Assembly (NCBI RefSeq): GCF_004322855.1
Contig: NZ_CP036402.1
Coordinates: 1,240,001-1,304,000, forward strand
Source: Egibacter rhizosphaerae
Lineage (GTDB): Bacteria; Actinomycetota; Nitriliruptoria; Euzebyales; Egibacteraceae
DNA: 64,000 bases
Reading direction: 5' to 3'
Notes under the pieces: model-generated
The model's input: only the letters and a program-made list of their open reading frames with translations
Told to the model about the DNA's origin: nothing
Databases searched by the model: none
Shown here: piece after piece, positions 34,781 through 39,994 of the stretch
How the letters are laid out: the number at the start of each line of letters is the position of its first letter
Numbering within the stretch: the first letter of the stretch is position 1
Position numbers and translations under genes: made by a program

Positions 34781-36049
34781 TTGGACCCCACCCCGCCCCG
34801 CAGGATCGCCCCGGCCGGCCCCCTCACGGCCATCGCACTCCTCGCGCTGGCACTCGTGCTGCTCGACGTCGCGAACGTGCGCGCCGACGAGCACGACGAG
34901 GACGAGACACCGGCGCCGGAGGTCGGCGAGACCCTCGAGATCGAGCGACTCGGAGGCGACGACCGCTTCGCCACCGCCATCCTGGCCGCGGAGCGCGCCC
35001 ACCCCGACGGCTCGGAGCAGGCCGTGATGGCGACGGGTCGGGACTTCGCCGACGCGCTGGTGGCGACGGTGCGGTCGGCGAGCCTCGACGCACCGCTGCT
35101 GCTGCTCCCGGACCGCCTCCGCGACGACGACCGCGACGCCCTCGACGGGCTGGGGATCGAGCGCGCGGTCGTCGCCGGCGGCGTCACCCCGGTCCCCTAC
35201 ATCACCGAGGTCGATCTCGCCCGCGCGGACGTCGAGCTCACTCGCGTCGCGGGAGTGACCCGTTACGACACCGCGGCTCGTCTCGCGACCGAGGACGCCA
35301 CGGCGGGCGAGGGTGGGGCGCAGGTCGTGATCGCGTCCGGCGAGGACTTCGCCGATGCGGTGACCGGGTCCGCCATCGCCGCCGCCGACCAGACACCGCT
35401 GTTGCTCACGCGCCGCGACGCGTTGCCCGACGACACGGCCGCTGCGATCGACCGGCTCGGGCCGGACGGCACCGTCGTGGTGGGTGGCACCGCGGCGGTC
35501 GCCGACGGCGTCATGGACCAGTTGCCGGATGCCAGACGGGTCGCGGGCGACGACCGGGTCGCGACGTCCGTGGCGGCCGCGCGAGAGCGGCTCGACGAGG
35601 GCACGGACCCCAGCGAAGTGGTGGTCGCCAGCGGACGCTCGTTCCCCGATGCGCTCTCGGCCGGGGCACTGGCCGCGTCCGCCGACGCCCCGCTCCTCCT
35701 GGTCGAGCCCGCGGCCGACCCCGGAGGGGCCGCGGTGGAGTTCGTGCGCGAGCACGCCGCCGCCATCGAGAGGCTCGTCGTCGTCGGCGGGCCGAGCGCC
35801 GTGCCCGAGCAGGCCCTCGGGGCGCTCGAGGAGGCGGCCGGCGACGGGGCCGCGGCCGAGGCCCGGCACGACGAGACGGATGCGAACGGCCAGACCGACG
35901 GCGACGCCGAGGGCGACGAGGAGAGCGGGAACACCGAGGACACCGGGAACGCCGAGCACGAGGAGGGCGACGAGGAGAGCGGGAACACCGGGGACACCGG
36001 GGACACCGGGGAACGCGAGCCGGGAGCGGAGGAGCAGGCCGATGAGTGA
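34781..36049 (+). CDS. Secreted protein with three cell-wall-binding type 2 repeats
   Basis: 422 residues from a TTG with GGAGG eleven bases upstream. Signal peptide: hydrophobic LTAIALLALALVLLDVA then a likely cleavage site at VRA-DE near residue 38. Three CWB2 repeats follow: IERLGGDDRFATA near 50, LTRVAGVTRYDTA near 150 and ARRVAGDDRVATS near 250, each with the GRDFADAL/GEDFADAV/GRSFPDAL loop and a VVAGG or VVVGG strand. CWB2 modules bind anionic wall polymers non-covalently. The tail (about 370-422) has repeats of GDEESGNT and GDTGDTG. Its last eight bases overlap the mauE-like gene. Confidence 0.92.
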   Translation: MDPTPPRRIAPAGPLTAIALLALALVLLDVANVRADEHDEDETPAPEVGETLEIERLGGDDRFATAILAAERAHPDGSEQAVMATGRDFADALVATVRSASLDAPLLLLPDRLRDDDRDALDGLGIERAVVAGGVTPVPYITEVDLARADVELTRVAGVTRYDTAARLATEDATAGEGGAQVVIASGEDFADAVTGSAIAAADQTPLLLTRRDALPDDTAAAIDRLGPDGTVVVGGTAAVADGVMDQLPDARRVAGDDRVATSVAAARERLDEGTDPSEVVVASGRSFPDALSAGALAASADAPLLLVEPAADPGGAAVEFVREHAAAIERLVVVGGPSAVPEQALGALEEAAGDGAAAEARHDETDANGQTDGDAEGDEESGNTEDTGNAEHEEGDEESGNTGDTGDTGEREPGAEEQADE

Positions 36050-36662
36050 GCTCGGACTGGCCGCCGCCTGGGGCCTGGCGGCGGTCTTCCTCTGGAGCGC
36101 AGCGGCCAAGGGCCGCACCCTGCCCGCGACCGTCGAGGCACTCCGCGGGCTGCGCCTACCCGCCCCCCGACTGCTCGCTCCCGCGCTCGTCGCCGGCGAG
36201 GCCCTGCTCGCGCTCCTGCTCCTGGCCACGCCCGCGATCGGGGCCGCGGCCGCGCTCCTGGCGCTCGGCGGCTTCTCCGCGGTCCTCGCCCTGCTGCTGC
36301 GCCGCGGCATCACCTCCCCCTGCGCCTGCCTCGGCGGCGACGCGCGGCAACCCCTGTCGTGGCGGGCCGTCGCGCGGAACGGCCTCCTCGCGCTCTTCGC
36401 CGCAGCTGCGCTGGCCGCCCCCGAGCCCGCGGTACCCGGGATCGCCGGGCTCGTCGCCGTCACCGCCGCCGGGCTCGTCGGCGCCACGCTGTTGGCCCTG
36501 GCCGAACTGCGTGCCCGCACGGGGCACCTGCTCTCCCTGGGCCCCCTGCCCCCCGCGCCCCCGGGAAGCGCGGACGAACCGCTCGGGGCCACACTGCCGC
36601 TCGTGTCCGCGGGCCATCCCGGCGCGACACCAACAGGAGAGACCCCGGAGCAACGGCGATGA
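36042..36662 (+). CDS. MauE/DoxX-like redox-associated membrane protein
   Basis: 206 residues. The ATG at 36042 lies inside the last codons of the CWB2 gene and has GGAGGAG about seven bases upstream. Four or five membrane helices; an exposed SPCACLGGD motif with Cys94 and Cys96 follows helix 3, as in MauE proteins that work with MauD to form disulfides in methylamine dehydrogenase. The C-terminal 40 residues are hydrophilic. Its stop marks the left junction of an IS110 element; without that element the stop would overlap the start of the MauD-like gene as ATGA. Confidence 0.85.
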   Translation: MSELGLAAAWGLAAVFLWSAAAKGRTLPATVEALRGLRLPAPRLLAPALVAGEALLALLLLATPAIGAAAALLALGGFSAVLALLLRRGITSPCACLGGDARQPLSWRAVARNGLLALFAAAALAAPEPAVPGIAGLVAVTAAGLVGATLLALAELRARTGHLLSLGPLPPAPPGSADEPLGATLPLVSAGHPGATPTGETPEQRR

Positions 36663-36673
36663 GATGCCCTGTG

Positions 36674-37909
36674 TCAAGCTACCGCTGGAAGTTCTTGGCT
36701 GGGGGGCAGGAACGGTTGGTTGCCGCCGTGTCGGGTGGGGTCGTAGGCGGTGTGGTCTTGCCAGCAGCGCCAGATGATGCGCAGCCAGGCGCGGGCGAGG
36801 ATGCGGGTGGCGTGTTGGTGGGTCTTGCCGGCGGCGCGGTGGCGGTCGTAGATGGCGGCGGCCCAGGGGCTGGCGTGGCGGCTGTCGGCGGCGAAGTCGG
36901 TGACGGCGTCGCGGAGCTTGTGGTCGCAGGCCCAGCGGAACGACACGACGTGGTGGCGTCCGGACTGTCGGGTGGAGGGTGCGGCGCCGGCGAGCGCGGC
37001 CAGCGACGCGTCGGTGGGGAAGCGGCCGCGGGCGTCGCCGATCTCGACCAGCAGCTTGGCGGCGCGGACCTGCCCCGAGCGGGGCAGGCTCGTGAAGATC
37101 GCCGCGTCGGGGTGGCCGGCGAGCTGCTCGCGGATCTGGGTCTCGAGCGCGCTGATCTGTGTGCGCAGCGCCTGCAGGGTTTTGACGTAGGCGAGGGTGG
37201 TGTGGGCTGCGGCAGCGGCCACCTGGCCGGTGAGCCCTTCGGGGCCGGCGTCGAGCCGGTCGAGCAGCGTCTGGGTGGGGGTGCGCCCGCTGTAGCCGTG
37301 CTTGGCCAGCCACGAGCCCAGCCGCTTGTGAGACAACCACGCGGCCTTGTCGACGTTGGGGAAGCGGGACAAAAACGCCAGGCTCACGGCCGAGTCGAGG
37401 TCAGCGAACAGGCCGACGGCGGCGGGGAACACCGTGCGCAGGTGAGCGCGCAGCTGGTTGCAGATCGCCACCCGCGCTTCGACCAGGTCGGTGCGGGCGC
37501 GCACGGCCGAGCGCAGCGCGAGGGTCTGCGCGCTGTCGGGGGTCAGGCAGACGAGCCGGTGGCTGTCGGTGCGCAGCACATCGGCGAGGACGTAGGCGTC
37601 GAAGCGGTCGTCCTTGTTGCCCGCGGCGCCGTAGCGGTCCCGCAAGTTCTTCACCTGCCGCGGCGTCACGACGACAACCTCGACTCCGGCGGCGATCAGC
37701 GCGTCGACGACCGGCCCGTCGGGCCGTTCGATCGCGACCCGGTCGACCCCGTGCTCGAGGAAGGCGCTGACCAGCCGGCGGATCCCGGCAGCGTCATGGG
37801 TGGTGTTCGCGCGCAGCAGCACCGCGCCGTCAGCGGCGATGACGCACTGCTCGTTGGTGTCGGTCGCCCAGTCGACTCCTCCGGTGGACGCGGTCATGTC
37901 ATGCTGCAT
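36674..37909 (-). CDS. IS110-family transposase (DEDD recombinase)
   Basis: 411 residues from the ATG at 37909, with AGGAGG six bases upstream. The N-terminal RuvC-like DEDD domain shows GGVDWATDTNEQ (first Asp), VAIERPDGPVV (Glu) and DDRFDAYVLADVLRTD (paired Asp). A helical linker spans about 150-260. The C-terminal Transposase_20 domain contains SLPRSGQVRAAKLLVEIGD and LAALAGAAPSTRQSGRH with the conserved serine. Uses a bridge RNA to join element and target; that RNA is encoded directly upstream on the same strand. Confidence 0.95.
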   Translation of the reverse strand: MQHDMTASTGGVDWATDTNEQCVIAADGAVLLRANTTHDAAGIRRLVSAFLEHGVDRVAIERPDGPVVDALIAAGVEVVVVTPRQVKNLRDRYGAAGNKDDRFDAYVLADVLRTDSHRLVCLTPDSAQTLALRSAVRARTDLVEARVAICNQLRAHLRTVFPAAVGLFADLDSAVSLAFLSRFPNVDKAAWLSHKRLGSWLAKHGYSGRTPTQTLLDRLDAGPEGLTGQVAAAAAHTTLAYVKTLQALRTQISALETQIREQLAGHPDAAIFTSLPRSGQVRAAKLLVEIGDARGRFPTDASLAALAGAAPSTRQSGRHHVVSFRWACDHKLRDAVTDFAADSRHASPWAAAIYDRHRAAGKTHQHATRILARAWLRIIWRCWQDHTAYDPTRHGGNQPFLPPSQELPAVA

Positions 37910-37965
37910 GTGTGCCTCCTGGCTGTTCGCCCAGCTGGTAGGCACCCGGCGGTGCTGGGACGTGC

Positions 37966-38112
37966 TCGTCGGTCGCTCACTGATCGGCGCTCTGCGGCGC
38001 TCAGCCCTGTAGCCGCTTGGCACGTCCCGGGCCGCCGGACCCCGCGAAACTCATCGTGGCCCTCGAAGGGCCAGCGACCCAGGCGGTGGTCCGGCAGGCA
38101 CCCGGGGTGCAT
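37966..38112 (-). ncRNA. Bridge RNA of the IS110 element
   Basis: Read on the minus strand from about 38112: a 5' hairpin (GCACC-CCG-GGTGC, 38110-38098); a target-binding loop with left guide GGTCGCT (38079-38073), a stem GGCCCT-TCG-AGGGCC (38072-38058) and right guide CGATGAG (38056-38050); then a donor-binding loop with ACAGGGC (38010-38004) and CAGTGAG (37982-37976). CGATGAG is exactly complementary to the right target plus core (CTCATCG); GTCGCT pairs with the left target AGCGGC through one G-U. ACAGGGC equals the element's right end and CAGTGAG is complementary to its left end (CTCACTG). Ends are approximate. Confidence 0.78.
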
Positions 38113-38151
38113 CGGCAGTCCCATGACCACCGACACGAGGATGGTGCACCA

Positions 38152-38637
38152 GTGAGCGGCACCGCCTGGATCGCGTCGTACGTCCTCCTCTGGATCGCCG
38201 TGCTCGTGCTCGGGTTGGCGGTCGTGGTCCTGCTGCGACACATCGGGGTGCTGCACGCGCGCCTCGGGCCCCAGGGCGTCCACCACGGGAACGAGGGCCC
38301 GACCGTCGGCGATCCGGCCCCCGCCGCCGGGTGGTTCGATTACGCGGGCGCCGAACTCACGCTGGTCACCTTCACCGCACCGGGGTGCCCCCTGTGCGCC
38401 GAGCTCGTGCCCTCGCTCGAGCGGCTCGCCCGCGTCGATCGCACGGTACAGCTGCAACTCGTCGACCACGGGCGTGACGAGGTGGGAGTCTTCGCCGCGT
38501 GGAACGTGAGTCAAACGCCCTACGTGGTGGCCGTCGACCGGGATGGCATCGTCCGGGGCGGGGGGATCGCGAACAGCCTCGAACAGGTCGAGACGTTGAT
38601 CGACAGCATCCAAGGAGAGCAGCGGGATGCAGCCTGA
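38152..38637 (+). CDS. MauD-like membrane-anchored thioredoxin
   Basis: 161 residues. One N-terminal helix (about 6-29) anchors a periplasm-side thioredoxin domain. LLRHIGVLHARLGPQG after the helix is a MauD trademark. Redox motif CPLC at 79-82 in TAPGCPLCAEL, and cis-proline in SQTPYVV. In methylotrophs MauD is needed for disulfide formation in the methylamine dehydrogenase light chain; here the next gene encodes a light-chain-like Cys-rich domain. The present start GTG is created by the IS110 end joined to TGAGC; the ancestral start was probably ATG overlapping the mauE stop. Overlaps the next gene by 11 bases. Confidence 0.85.
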   Translation: MSGTAWIASYVLLWIAVLVLGLAVVVLLRHIGVLHARLGPQGVHHGNEGPTVGDPAPAAGWFDYAGAELTLVTFTAPGCPLCAELVPSLERLARVDRTVQLQLVDHGRDEVGVFAAWNVSQTPYVVAVDRDGIVRGGGIANSLEQVETLIDSIQGEQRDAA

Positions 38638-39994
38638 CCACGACGCCGTCGACCGCGCCGGGACCGTCGACCGGCTCGTCGAGCGCACCAGCCGAGCCAC
38701 GCGCGACCGCATCAGCCGACGTTCGTTCCTGGGACGGGCGAGCCGGACCGCCATGGTGATCGCGGGGGGATCGGCGCTCGTCCCGTACCTCGCCGGGCCG
38801 GCCGGAGCCCGCGTCTGCGGTCAGTCCGGGGTCGCCCCGAAGTGTCCCACGTTCGACTGCGATCGAGAGTGGGGTTGGTGCTGGTACGCGTCGGGATGCT
38901 GCGCGGACGGTGCGCTCAAGAAGATCTGCGACTGCTGCGCGCCCAACACGCCGCATCCGGTCGGTTACTGCCCCTCGGGCACCCGCGTCTACTGCATCGT
39001 CGAGTCCTGCGGCGCCGACCCGCGCCTGCAAACCGTCGAGCACCGCCGGCTCACCGAGGCCGCCCCGAGCGCGATCTCGGTCGCTGCCAGCCGGCACCGG
39101 TTCGACCGCGCGGATGCGGTGGTGGTGGGCGACGGGGGCCGTTTGCTGCGCGCCGCGCAGGCGATGAGCCTCGGCGGCGTCGTCGCGGGTCCGGTGCTCT
39201 TGACGCAGGAGGGCCTCGACGCCGCGGTCGCCGAGGAGATCGAGCGGCTCGGCGCGGAGGCCGCCGTGGTCGTTGGCAGGGACATGGGTGAGGTCGCGTC
39301 GGATCTCGAGGGACGCGGCCTGCACGTCGACCAAGTGGGCACCTCGACCGACAACTCCACGGGCGCCACGCAGGTCGCGAGGTGGCACCGGGAGCGCACC
39401 GGCCAGCGCCGCGCCGTGATCGTGCTGGACGACGCTCCCTCCACCGTGCTCGCGTCGGCCGCCGCGTTCGCGCACGCGGTGCGGGTTCCGCTGCTGCTCG
39501 GCGACAACGGCACCACCCGCGACGCGCTGGAGGACATCCGTCCGATCCGCGAGACCTGGGTGGTCGGACCGGGCGCTGCCGACCGCGACTTCCCGGGGAT
39601 GCGGGCGCTCTCGGGGGGCGACGCGGCGGAGGCGGCAGCGGCGGTCGGCGACGCGGCCGACACCGAGGGCGTGCCGCTCGGGGAGGTCGTCCTCGCGCCG
39701 GAGGCCGAGGCCTGGACCGCCATGGCGGGCGCGGCCTACGCGGCCCCGTTGCTGCTCCACCAGTCGAGCACGATCGACGGGGCCACGTTCGACTGGCTGC
39801 TCAGCGCCCGCTCGCTGATGAACCGCGTGACGGTGGTCGGAGGCGACGGGACGCTGAGCGACCAGGGCCAGTGGGAGCTGCAGGGCCTCGTCAACGAGTT
39901 CGAGGTGCACCAGCTCACCGGCAGCGCCGGCGAGGGGCTGCCGGTGATCCCGCAGCCACCGGACGAGCGCCCGATCGGGGAGGCACGACGGTGA
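38627..39994 (+). CDS. Tat-exported fusion: methylamine-dehydrogenase-light-chain-like Cys-rich domain plus CWB2-like repeats
   Basis: 455 residues. Twin-arginine signal SRRSFLGRAS at 30-39 with a hydrophobic stretch to about 62. Residues 64-128 contain 12 cysteines (64, 73, 78, 85, 91, 92, 101, 103, 104, 115, 123, 128) in a pattern like MauA, including GWCWYASGCC, ICDCCAPNTP, YCPSGTRVYCIVESCG. The mature MauA has six disulfides, matching 12 Cys, but I do not see the two tryptophans that form tryptophan tryptophylquinone after the CPSGT strand, so catalysis is unproven. Residues 140-450 resemble diverged CWB2 repeats (AVVVGDG, AVVVGRDMG, TWVVGPGAA, VTVVGGDGT) and would hold it in the wall. 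Last gene before the UGA-containing membrane protein, with which it shares one base. Confidence 0.82.
   Translation: MQPDHDAVDRAGTVDRLVERTSRATRDRISRRSFLGRASRTAMVIAGGSALVPYLAGPAGARVCGQSGVAPKCPTFDCDREWGWCWYASGCCADGALKKICDCCAPNTPHPVGYCPSGTRVYCIVESCGADPRLQTVEHRRLTEAAPSAISVAASRHRFDRADAVVVGDGGRLLRAAQAMSLGGVVAGPVLLTQEGLDAAVAEEIERLGAEAAVVVGRDMGEVASDLEGRGLHVDQVGTSTDNSTGATQVARWHRERTGQRRAVIVLDDAPSTVLASAAAFAHAVRVPLLLGDNGTTRDALEDIRPIRETWVVGPGAADRDFPGMRALSGGDAAEAAAAVGDAADTEGVPLGEVVLAPEAEAWTAMAGAAYAAPLLLHQSSTIDGATFDWLLSARSLMNRVTVVGGDGTLSDQGQWELQGLVNEFEVHQLTGSAGEGLPVIPQPPDERPIGEARR

Follow-up and report, generated by a model that had tools for sequence, protein, structure and literature searches.

An IS110-group element in Egibacter rhizosphaerae with start-codon-directed bridge RNA guides and a possible translational relay through its antisense frame

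The element and its host genes

A complete insertion sequence of the IS110 group lies between a mauE-like and a mauD-like gene in Egibacter rhizosphaerae (NCBI RefSeq assembly GCF_004322855.1, contig NZ_CP036402.1). The window is the whole 64,000-nucleotide (nt) stretch analysed here, positions 1,240,001 to 1,304,000 of that contig, and coordinates are counted from its first base unless another locus is named. A preliminary description of this DNA had recognized a bridge RNA in the element; it was silent on the start-codon nature of the target and on the antisense frame that couples mauE to mauD.

The element occupies 36664..38156 on the minus strand and is 1,493 base pairs (bp) long including its left CT core (38155..38156); the right CT core lies at 36662..36663 on the same strand. 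These limits come from direct reading, from a second copy in the genome (L092), and from the consensus of the left and right ends of about 60 relatives. The left end is about 247 nt long and carries the RNA, and the right end is about 10 nt. The recombinase (411 amino acids, 36674..37909, minus strand) matches the Pfam families DEDD_Tnp_IS110 (4.9e-33) and Transposase_20 (2.5e-14). With its RuvC-like DEDD domain and Transposase_20 domain, a longer RNA-bearing left end, and a CT core common to target and donor, the element has the features of the IS110 group. By analogy with IS621, D13, E61, D101 and D104 are candidate catalytic DEDD residues, and the serine of a TRQSG motif at position 316 is the candidate catalytic Ser316. 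Judged by its sequence, the element looks active.

The flanking genes are on the plus strand. The mauE-like gene upstream (36049..36662, start uncertain) takes its name from the preliminary description, and a Pfam search gave no family match for it. The mauD-like thioredoxin-fold gene (38152..38637) has a weak, sub-threshold Thioredoxin match (5e-4) and a homologue in an uninterrupted relative (L154); it now opens with GTG AGC, read from the tip of the element. Its original ATG is at 36659..36661, with GGAG upstream at 36647-36650, and overlaps the mauE stop (TGA, 36660-36662), so the junction before insertion was ATGA. The uninterrupted relative has an equivalent 4-nt overlap, GTGA, between mauE and mauD.

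The bridge RNA and its guides

The 247-nt left end folds into a 5′ hairpin and, after it, two long stems interrupted by internal loops (minimum free energy -85.7, z -2.63), and a consensus fold with covariation agrees, which bears out the order of hairpin, target-binding loop and donor-binding loop described earlier. The RNA had been placed at 37966-38112; it is indeed there, but its limits are most likely about 38113-37951 (about 37951..38113, minus strand). A scan against Rfam found nothing at gathering score. Direct reading of the minus strand returned all four guides with the sequences, positions and pairings first assigned to them. First, the right target guide (RTG), CGATGAG at 38050..38056, is fully complementary to CTCATCG at the mauE junction. 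Second, the left target guide (LTG), GTCGCT at 38073..38078, equals GCCGCT on the mauD side except for one U in place of C, which leaves a G-U pair. Third, the left donor guide (LDG), ACAGGGC at 38004..38010, matches the right end of the element (ACAGGGC-AT|CT). Since this match ends two bases before the CT core, the LDG is 7 nt here and excludes the core; it is 8 nt in relatives with the right end ACAGGGCTA. Fourth, the right donor guide (RDG), CAGTGAG at 37976..37982, matches the left end (CTCACTG) and is nearly invariant in the family.

The second copy, L092, is 99% identical, lies 1.8 Mb away, and sits in a GAF/histidine-kinase gene, at its start codon; this gene is not homologous to the mau site. 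Apart from GGTGCCGCT at the left and CTCATCG at the right, the flanks of the two copies have essentially nothing in common. The preliminary description had held that copies of the same element at sites unrelated to the guides would speak against it; this copy, in an unrelated gene, has the same guide-predicted target halves. Its LTG is perfect (GCCGCT), and the window copy is perhaps drifting inside the tolerance that G-U pairing allows. Counting both strands, the 4.64-Mb genome contains 35 exact matches to the 11-bp target GCCGCTCATCG (about 4e-6 per position), yet both complete copies occupy one, so the guide matches are more than chance. The same 11-bp sequence is 3.5 times commoner in this genome than its reversed control (35 against 10). 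A third copy (L093, C1:534495-534819 of the same genome) is degenerate: deletion has removed its donor loop and the greater part of its transposase, and CCGCT is kept at the left junction.

A further check proposed earlier was to compare the flanks of other copies with their guides. Of 80 related loci that we gathered, about 60 could be delimited at both ends, and their left ends were aligned; 47 elements were usable for the pairing test. Further sampling of genomes added few elements, and plasmid copies, which lacked annotation, were interrupted by an IS3 or were too distant, were left out. Guides and sites change together. At the variable positions 4-7, the RTG forms 179 of 188 possible Watson-Crick pairs with its own site (108±5.6 when shuffled), and at the eighth base pairing is no better than chance, which sets the right guide at 7 nt including the core. 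The LTG pairs with its own left target at 184 of 329 positions (141.6±6.4 when shuffled), and relatives whose right end is ATAGGGCT also have ATAGGGCT as their LDG. In the stems, 97.8% of cells are paired. Compensatory change is seen in 19 pairs, and sliding the partners by 1-3 columns reduces this number to 3-8; the covariation score is 0.407, against 0.195 for shuffled and at most 0.115 for slid alignments. (The 5′ hairpin, seen in the window fold, is outside this count.) Given guide-target pairing and stem covariation among relatives, the RNA and its guide assignment can be regarded, on comparative grounds, as well established. One relative (L055, 2200-2260 and 3717-3790 of that locus) lies within a short direct-repeat array of GGGCGGCTCACGCCTGCACCTCAGTCGCC units that contains the guide target.

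Insertion at start codons

The commonest targets in the clade read ATGAG or GTGAG on the opposite strand (42 of 49 complete elements). An ATG or GTG triplet with a measurable upstream region is present at 41 of 60 sites, and the Shine-Dalgarno energy there averages -6.3; 603 control RTGAG sites in the same flanks average -3.3 (P = 4e-8). In several of the downstream proteins the match to a Pfam profile begins at the first residues (examples are NIF3, HAD hydrolase, SDR, sulfotransferase, FGGY kinase and LMW phosphatase). The targets of the clade are thus mostly real gene starts.

An open antisense frame

From the original mauD start codon, an open reading frame of 498 codons runs antisense from one end of the element to the other, across the bridge RNA gene as well (36659..38155, plus strand). 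It borrows its start from the host, as the hed frame of IS900 does, and will be called hed-like here. Its last codons are CAC CAG TGA, with the stop at 38153-38155. At the tip of the element, direct reading of GAGGATGGTGCACCAGTG (38137..38154, plus strand) gives a Shine-Dalgarno-like stretch and a GTG at 38152-38154 in frame with mauD: GAGGATGGTG precedes this GTG, which overlaps the TGA of the hed frame. Because of that overlap, mauE/ATGA/hed/GTGA/mauD stays a chain of overlapping cistrons.

Several comparisons among relatives bear on whether the frame is maintained. The complete hed frame is found in 30 of 42 start-site elements and in none of 7 elements at other sites (Fisher P = 6e-4). The non-coding ends vary in length between 246 and 346 nt, yet 35 of 42 keep one register modulo 3 (17 of the 21 distinct lengths agree, P = 1e-5). 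The remaining antisense frames and the sense frames of this end usually carry stops; given those in the sense frames, we discarded the idea that the register reflects a transposase gene reaching further upstream. The codons TTA, CTA and TCA together number 0.30 per transposase in the start clade, where 3.6 would be expected. The Shine-Dalgarno energy of the tip is -8.7, compared with -2.4 for shuffles. L127, found once the rules were fixed and the sole clean held-out start-site element, satisfies every one of them. Together, these sequence comparisons indicate that the open antisense frame is under selection. In the recombinase tree, elements at other sites appear at eight separate places, so the loss of start targeting and of the frame has probably happened repeatedly. 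Substitutions in the hed frame of the non-coding end show no codon-position bias (158:126:164 at positions 1:2:3).

A sister clade (L060, L065, L069, L072, L074, L077-L079 and L081), with the right end ATAGGGCT, or ACAGGGCT in L060, inserts at the ends of two convergent genes, typically at TGAG-N2-TCA, where long open frames with high G+C at third codon positions (GC3) converge from both sides. By its count of TTA, CTA and TCA codons (3.9 per transposase against 4.3 expected), no antisense-frame constraint is seen.

Beside the mau-like genes of the window, 38627-39994 encodes a cysteine-rich protein with a twin-arginine-like leader and a sub-threshold match to cell-wall-binding repeat 2 (CWB2). 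It is possibly a methylamine-dehydrogenase-light-chain-like domain fused to CWB2.

A translational relay and its alternatives

These features can be brought together in one proposal. The bridge RNA would direct recombination into a CT core within a start-codon context (ATG-AG-C on the opposite strand). After insertion, the Shine-Dalgarno sequence and ATG of the host would end up at the right end of the element, and the left end would provide the gene with a substitute GTG and with a Shine-Dalgarno sequence to precede it. Ribosomes starting at the host ATG would translate the hed frame across the entire element and its bridge RNA gene and terminate at the TGA that overlaps the GTG; translation downstream would then re-initiate and the transcript would be shielded from polarity. 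The insertion may be tolerated, in other words, since host ribosomes traverse the element and restart. As far as the nucleotide sequences can speak, they show a guide-directed target, the start-codon context, selection on the frame, and a restart signal at the exit. Selection for translational transparency would explain why start-codon guides and an open frame are kept together and lost together, and we think it likely that a start-codon-directed bridge RNA element selected for such transparency is the best explanation of the whole.

Several observations weigh against this proposal. Of 20 exact target matches examined in the genome, most are not gene-start-like. On that count, the guide motif was rejected as a marker of gene starts in its own right: guide specificity is insufficient by itself, and selection for, or survival of, harmless insertions must partly shape the start bias. 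At least one start-like site is gene-internal (L084). The frame is broken in 12 of 42 start-site elements, several of which have frameshifted transposases too. The LDG stops short of the core. Finally, transposases of the start clade have diverged somewhat less at silent sites (0.81 of the random expectation, against 0.92).

This last point bears on the strongest alternative, which accepts the bridge RNA but takes the antisense frame to code for a functional Hed protein, made through host translation signals, with any benefit to the downstream gene incidental. Such a protein was reportedly proposed for IS900 in 1997, by Doran et al. An expressed protein would account for a frame kept open, and the mild over-conservation of transposase silent sites keeps it in contention; the hed frame of IS900, as a later account describes it, also spans its element without a ribosome-binding site or start codon of its own (PMC8141618). 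However, the lack of codon periodicity in the non-coding end favours a relay over a conserved peptide, and a Hed protein would not need the terminal GTGA, the strong Shine-Dalgarno sequence or a GTG in frame with the host gene. We regard this alternative as unlikely, though worth keeping in view. The frame might instead be an unselected by-product of high G+C codon usage, since in high-GC genes an antisense frame in register with the codons often lacks stops. This is strongly disfavoured and very improbable: the stop-codon sister clade, with similar GC3 (0.86 against 0.885), carries the expected number of TTA, CTA or TCA codons, about 4 per transposase, against 0.3 in the start clade, and the non-coding end holds its register. 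Least probable, and likewise strongly disfavoured, is that the guide matches are coincidental or the RNA is the wrong one and the protein sets the target, which the guide-target covariation, the stem covariation and the second copy all contradict.

The relay could extend beyond this locus. We lean towards the view that a widespread actinobacterial IS110 clade works in this way, with guides on start codons, one readable antisense frame, a tip that restarts the gene and near-neutral insertion, that the sister clade follows a corresponding strategy where stop codons converge, and that guide evolution follows the codons at gene boundaries. If so, the targeting half of an RNA-guided recombinase would be tied to a harmless-insertion strategy, which would let an element settle in genes without switching them off.

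Comparison with known systems

Bridge RNAs of the IS110 group are already known (PMC11208160; PMC11208158; PMC11187229), and the RNA described here is a new member. As with the seekRNA of IS1111 and IS110 elements, a guide RNA picks the target (PMC11187229). Members of IS1111 have subterminal inverted repeats and carry the RNA in the right end (PMC11187229), whereas here it is in the left end; the long RNA-bearing right end that marks the IS1111 group is absent, the right end being about 10 nt.

IS900 of Mycobacterium avium subsp. paratuberculosis is similar in another respect. It is known to favour translation starts, and an antisense hed frame without its own start spans the element (PMC8141618). 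Both are IS110-family elements at translation initiation signals with an element-spanning antisense frame. The target motif differs: it is CATGNNNNNNTCTCCTT for IS900 (PMC8141618), whereas here the core lies inside ATG-AG. The IS900 motif CATGN6TCTCCTT is not matched at this element, whose target is GCCGCT/CATCG around the core. The IS900 text consulted does not report a GTGA hand-over with an element Shine-Dalgarno sequence, selection for openness, or guide-based targeting (PMC8141618). The literature searched, which excluded preprints and most subscription journals, likewise yielded no mention of a guide basis, of the GTGA hand-over, or of a register constraint that disappears on retargeting, and neither the link to guides nor the family-wide selection on the frame was found in it. 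The relay would give the enigmatic hed frame of IS900-like elements a testable function.

The closest comparison is with IS621. The DEDD/Ser recombinase, the left-end RNA, and the 5′ hairpin with target and donor loops are alike (Durrant et al., 2024, PMC11208160; Hiraizumi et al., 2024, PMC11208158), as are the LTG/RTG/LDG/RDG layout and the CT core. The relatives add some 60 guide-target pairs from nature, with right guides of 7 nt, and so broaden the known design rules of bridge recombinases. Unlike IS621, the element described here has start-codon targets, an RTG that pairs over 7 nt including the core (4 in IS621), an LDG that ends before the core, and a conserved antisense frame across its whole length.
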